The translations under genes were made by a program, and so were the position numbers. DNA of 46,591 bases from Nitrospira sp. UW-LDO-01. GTDB lineage: Bacteria; Nitrospirota; Nitrospiria; Nitrospirales; Nitrospiraceae. Each line of letters starts with the position of its first letter. The stretch's first letter is position 1. The stretch spans positions 1 to 46,591 of the forward strand of contig NIUT01000077.1 of assembly GCA_002254365.1 (NCBI GenBank), given 5' to 3'. The notes under the pieces were generated by a model. The model was not told where the DNA came from, searched no databases, and worked only from the letters and a program-made list of their open reading frames with translations. Below are positions 26,079-31,762 of this stretch, one piece after another.

Positions 26079-26401
26079 ACCTCCAACATGGTTTCTGTTG
26101 GTGATAGGGCCTTTCTCTCTGTATCGATAAGTTTGACTCGTCACTGTCGTAAGAGTGGCATCATATTCTCACGAGCGTATCTTTCTCGATCCACCATTGT
26201 ATCTGAATAGATCCTGCATCTGTGTCTGCTAACCACGGTCCACCGTGGCTCCGTATTTGAGGAAGTGCGGTAACAGCAGTCTTTCCACGAGTTTTGAGCA
26301 TGGCGTCGTCAATCAAAGTCTCTGGTATCGAGATTGCCCAATAGCCTCCTGCGTAAGCGTGCCCCATCTGTTGCAGAGAGGTTATTTATCGTCAGCCAAG
26401 A
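26079..26401. other. Non-coding stretch downstream of mutS2
   Basis: No convincing gene. A 68-codon open frame on the minus strand (26161-26367) lacks a ribosome-binding site and resembles nothing I know. The weak inverted repeat CCAAC...GTTGG near 26092 has no T-run. Confidence 0.4.
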
Positions 26402-26570: not shown

Positions 26571-27959
26571 TTATTGTGGCGATGGCGATTGGAGGTGATG
26601 TTTCGCCATCCGGTAACGGAGCGTATTGCGGGTCATTTTGAGAAGGCGGCTGGCTTCTGAGACATTGCCCGATGCCTTTTGTAGCGCTTCTTCGAGCAGC
26701 TTCTTTTCCATCTCATGAACTGACAGTCCAAAGGCTAACAGGGATGGTCTGAGCTCAGGACTGTGGTTGCCGGCTGTCGCGTGACCGTTCACGGATGGGG
26801 GGAGGTGATGAGGTTGGATCACCTCTTCTTTACAGGTGATCGTGAGCCACTCGACCACATTGTGCAGTTCTCGGACATTGCCTGGCCACGTGTGGCTTCT
26901 GAGGACCGAGAGCGCGGATGGAGCAATGGCCTTTACACGGGAGCCATGTTCCTTTCTGGCCCGCTCTAGGAAGATCAGAAGAATCGGCTCGATATCTTCA
27001 GAGCGTTCTCGGAGCGGTGCAATGCGGAGCTGATAGACGTTCAATCGATAATATAGGTCGAGGCGGAAACGGCCTGCTTTGATATGGGCGAGCAGATCCT
27101 CGTTGGTTGCGGCGAGGATTCGGATATTGACTTTGTGGCTCTGGGTATCGCCGAGAGGATCAACGGTGCGGTTTTCCAGGACACGGAGCAACTTGGCTTG
27201 AGCGGTTGGGCTCATTTCTCCGATCTCGTCGAGAAAGAGCGTGCCGCCTTCCGCCAGTTGGAATCGTCCAGGTTTGGCCCGCTTCGCATCGGTAAACGCA
27301 CCCGGCTCATAGCCGAACAGCTCCGCTTCCAAAAGATGTTCTGGAATCCCGGCACAATTCAGGGCGATCAGCGGGCCATGGGCTCTGAGGCTGGAGTGGT
27401 GGATGGCCTCTGCAAACAATTCCTTACCAGTTCCACTTTCTCCGGTGATGAGGACGGTCGCATCGGTCACGGCGACTTCCTTGGCCAGGTGCTTCATCAA
27501 GTTCATCTGAGGCGAGATGCTGATAATGGAGGCAAAGGGATCCTCTGGTGCAGTGGATGTCACGAGAGGAGACTGTTTGAGGACACGACTGATCGCGGTC
27601 TGTAGGTCAACCGGAAAAACGGGCTTTGTCAGGTAATCCGCTGCACCAGCTCGCATGATGTTGACGGCGTCTTTAACGGAATGACGGTCTCCAATGATCA
27701 GTACAGGGGGAGCAGAAGAGAGTTGCCTGGCATATTCGAAGAGCGGCGCGAGAGCAGGGGAAGTTCCTTCGCTGATCACCAGCAGGGGGGGATTCTCGGA
27801 CCAGCGTGCAAGTCCTTCTGCGACAGTGGGTACTGATTGAACGCTGATCTCTGGTATGGCAGCTTCGACGAGCTGTCTAACATGGGGATCATTCGAGATG
27901 AGAAGCGCTGTCCGAAGGTTCATCGGAGTGCTCCTTGGCCTCGCCTCCTCTGGAACCAT
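26571..27959 (-). CDS. Sigma-54-dependent activator (NtrC family) with degenerate receiver
   Basis: 462-aa enhancer-binding protein. Residues 14-127 have the receiver fold, but Ser63 replaces the phospho-acceptor Asp (LLVISEGTSP), and the acidic pocket is Asn23-Asp24; the conserved Lys112 (LTKP) remains. The AAA+ domain has Walker A GESGTGKE at 173-180, GAFTDA (a GAFTGA variant) at 220-225 and LFLDE at 241-245. A Fis-type helix-turn-helix (NVSEASRLLKMTRNTLRYRM) ends the protein. AGGAGG lies five bases before ATG 27959. It would activate sigma-54 promoters without classical phosphorylation. The adjacent cytochrome/haemoglobin/nirK genes are candidate targets, by position only. Confidence 0.9.
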   Translation of the reverse strand: MVPEEARPRSTPMNLRTALLISNDPHVRQLVEAAIPEISVQSVPTVAEGLARWSENPPLLVISEGTSPALAPLFEYARQLSSAPPVLIIGDRHSVKDAVNIMRAGAADYLTKPVFPVDLQTAISRVLKQSPLVTSTAPEDPFASIISISPQMNLMKHLAKEVAVTDATVLITGESGTGKELFAEAIHHSSLRAHGPLIALNCAGIPEHLLEAELFGYEPGAFTDAKRAKPGRFQLAEGGTLFLDEIGEMSPTAQAKLLRVLENRTVDPLGDTQSHKVNIRILAATNEDLLAHIKAGRFRLDLYYRLNVYQLRIAPLRERSEDIEPILLIFLERARKEHGSRVKAIAPSALSVLRSHTWPGNVRELHNVVEWLTITCKEEVIQPHHLPPSVNGHATAGNHSPELRPSLLAFGLSVHEMEKKLLEEALQKASGNVSEASRLLKMTRNTLRYRMAKHHLQSPSPQ

Positions 27960-28115
27960 CAAAACCTCCTATAGCGTACACCTATTTTGATAGAGAAGGA
28001 AAGGGCAAGGTGGGTCGAGCGTTCCAATGGATATTGACCTGGGGACTGTTATGTAGATACAAAGCGCGTTTCAAAACTATGAAGGGATAGGGTATCGAGC
28101 GAGGAAACAGCACGT

Positions 28116-28161: not shown

Positions 28162-28620
28162 TTATTCCGTATCCTTGCAGAAGCTCCGCTCATAGGCGAT
28201 GATTGTCCAGGCTTCTTCCTCGGTGATGACGTTACCCTTGAGCAAGGCAGGCATACCTGTACCAGGGCTTCCATTCTTTATGACCCAGAACAGTTCCCCG
28301 TCGTTCCGTTTTTTGTGAAACTTGCAATTCGTAAGGTTTCGTGGACCTGGTGTGAGCAGCATTCCTCCCGCACCATCACCCTCGCCACTCTGACCGTGAC
28401 AATTTGCGCAGGTGCCCTTCCCTTCATAGAGGTCCTTGCCCTTAGCGAGCACGTCAGGGGTCACGGTGATCGGGCTTTTCATTTTTCGTGCTTCCCCACG
28501 CTCAGCGTCTGGAACGCGCGGCTTCAGAGGGTCGGACTCGGGGCCAGACCATCCTGCCGTACTCCACATGGCAACGGCGATGAAACTACACAACGTCACA
28601 ATCAAACGCTTCCCTCTCAT
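28162..28620 (-). CDS. Periplasmic mono-haem c-type cytochrome
   Basis: 152-aa exported electron carrier. A signal peptide occupies residues 1-25 (RGKRLIVTLCSFIAVAMW core). The haem-binding CANCH is at 71-75, followed by GQSGEGDGAGG, and the likely distal ligand Met123 is in GSPGTGMPALLKG; this is the class I (cytochrome cL/c6-like) pattern. Located downstream of nirK and the haemoglobin gene on the same strand, it could donate electrons to NirK or accept them from nitrite oxidation; the partner is inferred. Confidence 0.88.
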   Translation of the reverse strand: MRGKRLIVTLCSFIAVAMWSTAGWSGPESDPLKPRVPDAERGEARKMKSPITVTPDVLAKGKDLYEGKGTCANCHGQSGEGDGAGGMLLTPGPRNLTNCKFHKKRNDGELFWVIKNGSPGTGMPALLKGNVITEEEAWTIIAYERSFCKDTE

Positions 28621-28882: not shown

Positions 28883-29326
28883 TTACTTGGCTTCGACGAT
28901 GTCGCTCTTCATCGGCCCAAGGATGGCCAAAAGCTCGCCCTTTTCCTTTGCCGGAACGTTGAAGGTATCCAAGGCACTGACCAGGTCTTCCACGAGCGCG
29001 CCAAAGGCAGCGTCGGTGACCTTCATGCCCTTGTGCGTGGTCTTCATATCCCGACCAGAGTAGCTGCAGGGCCCACCGGTTGCCATACAGACCTGCTCGA
29101 CCAAGAGCTTGTTGAGCTTCTTGAGGTCGGTAGTCGCAAAGTAGCTATTGATCCGCTTGTCGCCGCCCACGTTGGCGATGAATTTGGTGACCACAGCTTG
29201 AATCGCGCCCTGTCCGCCGAGCCGCTCATAGAGCGATGCATCTGCGGCAAAGGACGTGGCGCTGCTCAGTGTCCAAGCAGCTGCGACGGCAACGGCCATA
29301 CTCAGAATCTTCTTGCTCAACGACAT
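28883..29326 (-). CDS. Exported group 1 truncated haemoglobin
   Basis: 147-aa globin with an N-terminal signal peptide (residues 1-28, AVAVAAAWTLSSATSFA). The mature part starts SLYERLGGQGAIQAVVTKFI, the group 1 (TrHbN) signature, and the proximal haem ligand is His98 in KTTHKGM. TrHbN proteins bind O2 and NO and can oxidise NO to nitrate. Export to the periplasm is unusual for this mainly cytoplasmic family and matches the site where the adjacent NirK would release NO. The gene starts 61 bp downstream of nirK, so cotranscription is likely. Confidence 0.88.
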   Translation of the reverse strand: MSLSKKILSMAVAVAAAWTLSSATSFAADASLYERLGGQGAIQAVVTKFIANVGGDKRINSYFATTDLKKLNKLLVEQVCMATGGPCSYSGRDMKTTHKGMKVTDAAFGALVEDLVSALDTFNVPAKEKGELLAILGPMKSDIVEAK

Positions 29327-29387: not shown

Positions 29388-30341
29388 TTACGGGTTCCAG
29401 GGAGTGTTGGGCATCAACTGACCCTTATAGTCCTTGGGATTCTGGTTGGCGATCACCACCGCGATCGCACCGCGCAGCGCGCCCGTCAAGGAGTGGGTCA
29501 CTACTGGATACGCTCCTGGGTTATCTGCGATCATATCAAAGGTGGCAGCGCTGCCTGGACCGACCACATAGGTCTGGACCCCCTTGAAATTGTTGGCTGG
29601 GTTGCCGCTCTCATAGACATTGTCCCAGATTTCGGCGATCGGATGGAGCGCGGAAAACTCGTTCGGGCCGGCATTCACGAAATAGATGCGTACCCGTTCA
29701 CCGACCTTGACTTCCAAGGGCTCTCCACCCGGGAAGAATGGGTGGTACTTGAAGATCCCGCCGTTGAAAATCGTATTGTCCCACTTCCGATCAAACATCG
29801 CCTGTACGTTGTCCGGGTTCTTCCAGAACTCGGATTGGACCAGAACGAATTCACGATCGGCCTTTGGCCAGGCATTGGCATCCTTCGGATCCACGATGAT
29901 GGCACCGAACATGCCACGGGCGACGTGCTGGATCATGGGGCTCGCGCCGCAGTGGTAGAAGAACACGCCGGGCTTCTTCGCCACGAAGGAGAACTTGTGC
30001 GTTTCGCCCGCTGAAACGGTCTTGTGGTAGTTCTTCAAGAAGTCGAGCTCCGCCGCATGGAAGTCCATCGAATGCGGGAAGGAGTTGTTCTTGTCGCCGA
30101 TCAGGGTGAAGTTCACTGTATCGCCTTCGGTGACCCGCACGACCGGGCCGGGCATTTGTCCATTGAACGTCCAGGCCTTGTATTTTGTCCCGTTCCCGTC
30201 AACGACGATTTCCGTTTCCATCGCCGTGAACGTGACCTCGTGTACCTTGGCCCCTGCGGACCCAGGCATGGTAATACATCCGCTGGCTCCCAGAAGGACC
30301 GCTAGTCCTAATGTAGCTGTGATCACACGAAACCTCTGCAT
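29388..30341 (-). CDS. nirK: Copper-containing nitrite reductase NirK (lipoprotein)
   Basis: Reduces nitrite to nitric oxide in the periplasm. The 317-aa protein from Met 30341 has two cupredoxin domains and every expected ligand: type 1 copper His90, Cys131, His139, Met144; type 2 copper His95, His130, His283; catalytic Asp93 (H-S-M-D-F-H pattern) and His233 (ALHPI). A lipobox LLGASGC at residues 16-22 suggests lipid anchoring at Cys22. The open frame reaches 30452, but only the Met at 30341 gives a proper signal sequence. In nitrite oxidisers its physiological direction is uncertain. Confidence 0.94.
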   Translation of the reverse strand: MQRFRVITATLGLAVLLGASGCITMPGSAGAKVHEVTFTAMETEIVVDGNGTKYKAWTFNGQMPGPVVRVTEGDTVNFTLIGDKNNSFPHSMDFHAAELDFLKNYHKTVSAGETHKFSFVAKKPGVFFYHCGASPMIQHVARGMFGAIIVDPKDANAWPKADREFVLVQSEFWKNPDNVQAMFDRKWDNTIFNGGIFKYHPFFPGGEPLEVKVGERVRIYFVNAGPNEFSALHPIAEIWDNVYESGNPANNFKGVQTYVVGPGSAATFDMIADNPGAYPVVTHSLTGALRGAIAVVIANQNPKDYKGQLMPNTPWNP

Positions 30342-30471
30342 AATTGCCTCCCTTTTTGTTGTATGGAAAAAAGACGTTCTACGTACTGAAGCGAGGTGAA
30401 TTGACCCTCCCTCCACGCTTCCGCGACAAACGCCCGCGTACAGGTATACCAAATCACGAAGAAAAAATACA

Positions 30472-30485
30472 TTGATCTATGTCAA
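30472..30485. promoter_or_regulatory. FNR/NNR-type operator upstream of nirK
   Basis: TTGATCTATGTCAA: perfect TTGA-N6-TCAA half-sites of the Crp/Fnr superfamily (FNR, DNR, NnrR), one mismatch from TTGAT-N4-ATCAA. It is centred about 137 bp upstream of the nirK start codon. A Crp/Fnr-type regulator gene lies just upstream. Together these suggest control by low oxygen or nitrogen oxides. Confidence 0.55.
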
Positions 30486-30686
30486 TCACGATTTTTTTCT
30501 CTGCGACAATTTGGTGCTGATCAAGAGACATTTAGGAATCTACCCTGGCTTGCAGCGCACGATGTGTGCCACCTGCCTGGTCTGATTCAGTCACCTCACA
30601 CTTGTAGAAAACCAATGATTTTTAGGAATTTGAGACCTTTGAAGTAGGGCTGAGATGATTAATAAAGAAATACTGAGTCGCGAATC

Positions 30687-30725
30687 GAATCTAATTAGAT
30701 ACATGGCATGTATCTAATTAGATTC
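30687..30725. repeat. 39-bp perfect palindrome with two nested 12-bp palindromes
   Basis: GAATCTAATTAGATACATG, a single G, then the exact reverse complement of the first 19 bases. Each arm holds ATCTAATTAGAT, itself a perfect palindrome; the two copies are 23 bp apart start to start. The structure fits a pair of operators for a dimeric regulator (MarR- or TetR-like spacing) or a cruciform-forming site. It lies 168 bp downstream of the Crp/Fnr gene and 346 bp upstream of nirK. Confidence 0.75.
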
Positions 30726-30892
30726 AGTTGCTGGTCAGTTTTGATGTTTGCAAGAAAGAACTATCGCAAACGTAGGATGAAGAGACGATACCTTGAGGCT
30801 GAAGGTCGTTTGGGGCCAGCATCTGATGGCTCTAGTTGGATTCAAATCATGGTCAAGCATCGCTGTATCCGACGTCTCAGTGGTAAATAATC

Positions 30893-31612
30893 TCAGCCGG
30901 CCAGAGTCTTGAGGGAGTCGATGGCAGGAATAAGCAGGTTCCTTCCTCCTGCCGTAGAAACAAGCCCGCTCTCGCGCCAACGGCTGAGAATTCGTACGAC
31001 GGTTTCTTCCGTCATGCCAGTCATGTGCCCGAGGTCTTCCCGAGTGAAGACGGTTGTAATGCACACGCCCTGCTCCGATGGCACACCGACTTTCTCCGCG
31101 AGCCGAACCAGCAAGGCCGCGAGGCGTTTTTCAGCCGGATCCAGGGCAAGGCTCTTGGCCATCTCCTGCGACTCTCGAAGCCGATTGCCGAGATATGTAA
31201 TGACTTGTGGGCCTGCACGCGGGTACTGCTCGATCAGCTGGAGATACGTGCGGCGGCTCAGTTTCACAATTGTGACATTTCCCATCGCTTGAGCATTGCC
31301 GGGATGTGGGAGTGATTGGTCAAATGTGACTGACTCACAACAGAAACTATCCCCAGGTAGAAGAGGTTTGAGGATAAATCCTTTGCCGTCAGGACCATAC
31401 TTGAGGCAACGGACAACGCCATGCTTGACGAAGTAGAGCCAGTCAGCGGAGTCTCCGTCGCGAAAAACGAATTCGTTGTTCGCGTGCTGCTGTTCGATCA
31501 CCTCCGGTGCGATACTGTGAAGCTCTTGTTCAGGCAGGAAGGACAACAGTGGGATGGTGCGCAAGAACTTAACGAGTGCCATCCGGTTGGTCTGAGGAGC
31601 AGCCTGAACCAT
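30893..31612 (-). CDS. Crp/Fnr-family transcription regulator
   Basis: 239-aa regulator from ATG 31612 (GGAGG five bases upstream; the frame also opens at 31645). An N-terminal cyclic-nucleotide-binding-like barrel (LPEQELHSIAPEVIEQQ, GDSADWLYFVKHGVVR, LLPGDSF), a dimer helix, and a C-terminal winged helix whose recognition part TREDLGHMTGMTEETVVRILSRW keeps the E-[ST]-x-x-R contacts expected for TTGA-type half-sites. The N-terminal Cys cluster that binds [4Fe-4S] in FNR is missing, so direct oxygen sensing in that way is unlikely; haem-based NO sensing (DNR-like) is possible. Likely regulator of nirK. Confidence 0.88.
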   Translation of the reverse strand: MVQAAPQTNRMALVKFLRTIPLLSFLPEQELHSIAPEVIEQQHANNEFVFRDGDSADWLYFVKHGVVRCLKYGPDGKGFILKPLLPGDSFCCESVTFDQSLPHPGNAQAMGNVTIVKLSRRTYLQLIEQYPRAGPQVITYLGNRLRESQEMAKSLALDPAEKRLAALLVRLAEKVGVPSEQGVCITTVFTREDLGHMTGMTEETVVRILSRWRESGLVSTAGGRNLLIPAIDSLKTLAG

Positions 31613-31762
31613 GGATCCTCCCCCCCATCGGGAGGCCTCATTCATACGATAAGTTCACAGTGATCGTCAAATCTCCGGTGGAGAATATGGTGCTGGCTGG
31701 GGCATTGTAAAAAACCCATCAAGGCAGCAAAGCCTCATTCGGCTCTGAGGAACAAATACTCT

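Follow-up and report, generated by a model that had tools for sequence, protein, structure and literature searches.

A palindrome upstream of nirK in Nitrospira is very probably a double UAS for a sigma-54 bEBP

The window analyzed here is the entire contig C77 (46,591 nucleotides) of Nitrospira sp. UW-LDO-01 (genome label G000; genome size, 3.9 Mb). It contains a palindrome at positions 30687 to 30725 that is flanked by a Crp/Fnr-type gene (30893 to 31645) and by nirK (29388 to 30341), both on the minus strand, and that lies ~365 bp upstream of the nirK start. The features of the locus are as follows, with the roles of the dyads and the promoter being those proposed below.

28162 to 28620, minus strand: cytochrome c gene, the third gene in the same direction
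28883 to 29326, minus strand: bacterial-like (truncated) globin gene with a signal peptide, the next gene downstream of nirK
29388 to 30341, minus strand: nirK, encoding a lipoprotein-like copper nitrite reductase with a multicopper-oxidase fold; presumed target
30572 to 30556, minus strand: sigma-54 (-24/-12)-like promoter of nirK, GTGGCACACATCGTGCG (GG-N10-GC; score, 9 of 13), in a block kept in 14 of 15 genomes
30687 to 30702, no strand assigned: dyad 1 of the putative double UAS (upstream activating sequence), GAATCTAATTAGATAC (GWATC-N6-GATWC), kept upstream of nirK in 14 of 15 genomes
30710 to 30725, no strand assigned: dyad 2 of the putative double UAS, GTATCTAATTAGATTC, with its center 23 bp from that of dyad 1

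The nirK, globin, and cytochrome c genes may be co-transcribed.

The palindrome reads GAATCTAATTAGATACATG-G-CATGTATCTAATTAGATTC, which is a pair of 19-bp arms around one base with zero mismatches. The 12-mer ATCTAATTAGAT is present once in each arm (30689 to 30700 and 30712 to 30723), and a search of the whole genome located it at just these two positions. By simple arithmetic, ~1e-5 perfect 19-bp inverted repeats with a 1-base loop are expected by chance in 3.9 Mb. The original prediction, that this is a mismatch-free 39-bp palindrome with a 12-bp palindrome in each arm and that it is beyond chance, is borne out on both points.

When the stretch from 30340 to 30920 was used as a query against 98 related genomes, the 39-bp island had matches in many members of the genus, despite the divergence of the remaining upstream DNA. 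Comparison of the genomes indicates that the conserved unit is not the 12-mer but the 16-bp dyad GWATC-N6-GATWC, which is present twice. The identical perfect palindrome is found in one further genome (G006). In both G000 and G006, the dyads are 23 bp apart and have matching spacers, and it is for this reason that the whole site is perfectly palindromic; at nirK loci elsewhere, the double dyad has a 21-bp spacing and imperfect arms. Upstream of nirK, the dyads and the -24/-12 block stand out as conserved islands within otherwise diverged DNA. Rapid loss of the palindrome in close relatives, which the original prediction had named as the observation that would count against it, is not seen at most of the nirK loci examined. 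One exception is G029, in which a deletion upstream of nirK (locus L008) took most of the double dyad and left approximately one and a half ends. This genome nevertheless has the gene for the PspF-like enhancer-binding protein (bEBP) that is described below.

The dyads are not confined to nirK. In other genomes of the genus they are inverted or head-to-tail and are mostly 17 to 23 bp apart (for a head-to-tail example at other genes, GAATCGAATTAGATAC...GAATCGAATTGGATAC). We applied a strict pair pattern, the one starting with GAATC, to 79 genomes from the genus, in line with the original suggestion that the genome and its relatives be searched. Dyad pairs were found in 50 of the 79 genomes, with a maximum of 37 strand-matches in one genome, and a reversed-pattern control gave zero matches in any of the 79. 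G000 itself has 35 matches to the half-site GAATCKAATTAGATACA at ≤3 mismatches, versus 2 for the control. Among 96 pairs, the spacing between centers peaks at 21 bp (41 pairs), followed by 17, 19, and 23 bp. In a double-site scan over named genomes, the matches listed are mostly from Nitrospira, and the rest are scattered singles that may be due to chance.

A strong RNA fold is predicted for the palindrome stretch (z of -6.7), which is what would be expected if the functional form were an RNA hairpin or a DNA cruciform. However, complementarity between the spacers of the two dyads in the 96 pairs is 2.71, compared with 2.64 ± 0.12 for shuffled spacers, perfect hairpins are formed by just 3 of these pairs, and many homologous pairs have a head-to-tail arrangement. 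Since the two spacers vary independently, the palindrome does not appear to be kept as a hairpin or cruciform, and we consider such a functional form very improbable. Independent spacers and a scarcity of perfect hairpins are instead explained by two separate protein sites. The original prediction had proposed either a tandem operator or a protein-bound cruciform; the first of these agrees with the two dyads, while the second is at odds with the independent spacers and the head-to-tail pairs.

The position of the inverted repeat after the stop of the Crp/Fnr gene would also suit a terminator of that gene or one copy of a mobile repeat. However, no T-run follows the palindrome, and a terminator scan did not report it, the sole result of the scan being unrelated and lying within the Crp/Fnr gene; a terminator had already been judged unlikely in the original prediction for lack of a T-run. 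At the other nirK loci examined, it is queG and not the Crp/Fnr gene that adjoins the site. Many near-identical copies, of the REP/MITE type, were not found in the genome: ATCTAATTAGAT is present at this locus alone, and the other sites share the letters of the motif rather than a long repeat. An Rfam search of the window gave no matches. A terminator or mobile repeat is therefore scarcely credible as an explanation for the palindrome.

We mapped sigma-54-like promoters around the 96 pairs by scoring GG-N10-GC sequences against YTGGCACGNNNNTTGCW (maximum score, 13). Between +100 and +200 bp, and directed away from the pair, there are 83, 49, 22, and 4 such promoters at thresholds of 9, 10, 11, and 12, respectively, while the other 100-bp bins contain about 10, 2, 0 to 3, and 0 to 1, and the mirror bin contains 9, 0, 0, and 0. 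Such a sigma-54-like site is present for 84 of the 96 pairs, compared with 28% of random points, and its median distance is 146 bp; 12 of the pairs are without a recognizable sigma-54 site. Thus, the double dyads have the sequence features of a UAS, which are paired dyad symmetry (seen in the 96 pairs) and a correctly oriented -24/-12 promoter at a distance of 80 to 200 bp. For the pairs in L079 to L164, pair-to-promoter distances look clustered near 104, 128 to 130, 150, and 165 bp, and this apparent clustering might reflect helical phasing. In L080 (3308 to 4212), a double and a single dyad are situated between polyketide-synthase-like and monooxygenase-like genes. Strong sigma-54-like sites point in both directions there, which would fit divergent genes that share an enhancer region.

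At nirK, GTGGCACACATCGTGCG is 147 bp from the center of the palindrome. Because the score of this promoter is modest (9 of 13), the case for sigma-54 rests on its conservation and on the whole set of pairs. In the 15-genome alignment, G036 keeps the dyads at nirK while the -24 half is missing. The same alignment has a third conserved island nearer the gene, TGTATTTTTTCTTC...ATTTGGTANATAG (30443 to 30472, minus strand), a possible further promoter or binding site. Separately, an FNR-like box, TTGATCTATGTCAA, is located at 30472 to 30485, past the sigma-54-like site and ahead of the nirK start. Just two genomes, G000 and G006, have the box in this form; they are also the two with the Crp/Fnr gene adjoining nirK, and from this distribution the box and the Crp/Fnr gene may have arrived at nirK together. 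No FNR/NnrR-type box (TTGAT-N4-ATCAA-like) was found in the palindrome.

An alternative is that the palindrome is the operator of a sigma-70-type repressor or activator, with the nearby sigma-54-like site being incidental: many regulators commonly have double palindromes as sites, and the third conserved block could be a further promoter. We regard this as unlikely, since the excess of sigma-54-like promoters is specific in both position and orientation, and a distance of ~365 bp from the nirK start is large for a classical operator. The palindrome is very probably a double UAS at which a sigma-54 bEBP drives nirK. This interpretation draws on the double-dyad motif, which recurs in the genus and is conserved at nirK, on the independent spacers, and on the excess of oriented promoters 100 to 200 bp downstream. 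It is also favored by the 25 bEBPs of the genome and by the way in which the presence of bEBP genes follows that of the motif, both described below. In the mechanism that we propose, two bEBP dimers with a Fis-type HTH would bind, one per GWATC-N6-GATWC dyad. The activator would assemble on the double dyad, the DNA would loop, and the AAA+ domain of the bEBP would remodel the sigma-54 RNA polymerase at the -24/-12 promoter (30572 to 30556), ~147 bp away. The outcome would be that nirK is switched on, perhaps along with the downstream globin and cytochrome c genes. We infer this step from motif to mechanism, that is, the binding, looping, activation, and operon structure at nirK, from the anatomy of the site and from statistics.

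The genome of UW-LDO-01 encodes 25 bEBPs. We compared these with the bEBPs of the motif-free genomes G017, G021, G042, and G101, with a profile search being used to collect bEBPs. Five of the 25 have no close relatives in these four genomes (G021 being represented by the 10 of its 15 bEBPs that were retrieved). One candidate is a PspF-like bEBP (G000:C84:465-1538, minus strand) with AAA+ and HTH_8 (Fis HTH) domains and no receiver domain. The motif is present in 40 of 40 genomes with this gene (39 carriers plus G102, in which the gene extends into an assembly gap of 100 N), a count that ignores kinship. However, in G054, G099, and G114, all of which retain many sites, the syntenic position is free of gaps and the gene is missing from it, and G026 has a 62% relative and yet no motif. 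The chance that this protein reads the double site is, in our estimation, a little short of even. If it does, then nirK would be controlled via a partner protein or via expression level rather than by phosphorylation.

A second candidate is the 618-aa bEBP of contig C150, which might read the site alone or share it with the PspF-like protein. With the N-terminal part as the query, and again ignoring kinship, the motif is present in 28 of 28 carriers, and these include G034, G045, G054, G099, and G114, all of which are without the PspF-like gene. The recognition helices of the two proteins are also alike (GISRATFYRRL in the C150 bEBP and QVSRSTLYRKL in the PspF-like bEBP). On the other hand, the C150 bEBP is missing from 22 motif-positive genomes, several of which have many sites (G016, G012, and G028), and its role as a reader of the site is possible but doubtful. 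If the two genes are considered together, the motif is found in 45 of 45 genomes that carry either one and in 5 of 34 that carry neither (kinship ignored), and 3 of these 5 have just one or two matches. Neither bEBP alone accounts for all of the motif-positive genomes. Co-occurrence across genomes thus narrows the activator to these two candidates without identifying it.

Other bEBPs were rejected. The neighboring bEBP gene (26571 to 27962) is shared by every one of the 79 genomes of the genus, including the 29 that are motif free. It has a weak receiver-like N terminus, and a degenerate single dyad is located just past its stop (26198 to 26214). The GAF-type bEBPs L178 and L180 have relatives in the motif-free genomes G025, G043, G014, G032, and G053 and are missing from many motif-positive genomes, and the bEBP L173 has close relatives in few genomes. 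The earlier statement that none of the neighboring regulators is an obvious match fits both the distribution of the 26571-to-27962 gene and the presence of queG, rather than the Crp/Fnr gene, beside the site at other nirK loci.

Besides nirK, the genes downstream of pairs encode a substrate-binding protein followed by a histidine kinase, TonB-type receptors, many lipoproteins, RTX-like repeat proteins, a type I secretion-type ABC transporter, a multicopper oxidase, a haemagglutinin-like protein, a PEP-CTERM-like protein, a polyketide-synthase-like protein, and LuxR-type response regulators. Most of these names come from reading the sequences; in UW-LDO-01, there is Pfam support for the substrate-binding protein, the LuxR-type regulator, the sensor kinase, a nuclease-like protein, and a TonB receptor beside a single dyad. 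The predicted regulon would consist, apart from nirK, mostly of envelope and secreted proteins. The double-dyad sites across Nitrospira apparently constitute a sigma-54 regulon that has not been described previously. More tentatively, the PspF-like bEBP may command this regulon throughout the genus as an attachment or aggregation program, which would comprise nirK and perhaps the globin as well as secretion and surface proteins, lipoproteins, the multicopper oxidase, and signaling proteins, with the second bEBP reading the same site in some lineages. The other members of the regulon point to joint switching of nirK with surface and secretion genes. A passage of a Nitrospira transcriptome paper states that the physiological role of NirK in nitrite-oxidizing Nitrospira is still to be determined (PMC6606698). 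With an enhancer and a promoter defined and two candidate activators named, the regulation of nirK becomes testable with few DNA probes and proteins.

The arrangement at nirK is like that of the UASs of bEBPs of the NtrC, NifA, XylR/DmpR, and PspF types, in which paired dyads for Fis-type HTH dimers are accompanied by a -24/-12 promoter 100 to 200 bp away. The motif of NifA, TGT-N10-ACA, for example, differs from GWATC-N6-GATWC, which is not known to be the motif of another bEBP. We did not find GWATC-N6-GATWC as a known bEBP motif in the open-access papers examined, in which motif logos within figures were not readable. The leading candidate is similar to receiver-less bEBPs of the PspF type in having AAA+ and HTH domains only, but the predicted Nitrospira regulon is, unlike theirs, large and diverse.

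Similar in method is the PrsR PEP-CTERM box of Proteobacteria, a 17-nt motif that has a TTTACA end and a spacer averaging 63 bp (range, 32 to 92 bp) (Haft 2006, PMC1569441), which likewise marks a sigma-54 regulon found by motif and phylogenetic profile. One Nitrospira target also has a PEP-CTERM-like tail at its end. However, PrsR has a receiver (PMC1569441), whereas the leading Nitrospira candidate does not, and the PrsR box itself is ruled out by the different motif (GWATC-N6-GATWC rather than a TTTACA end) and distance (147 bp rather than ~63 bp). The predicted regulon also resembles the "exterior" theme from the proposal that sigma-54 controls the cell exterior (PMC3162934). Finally, sigma-54-dependent regulators are located near nxrAB in Nitrospira moscoviensis (PMC6606698). 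The passages on these regulators describe neither a binding motif nor sigma-54 control of nirK, but they do, like our interpretation, propose that sigma-54 governs nitrogen genes in this genus.
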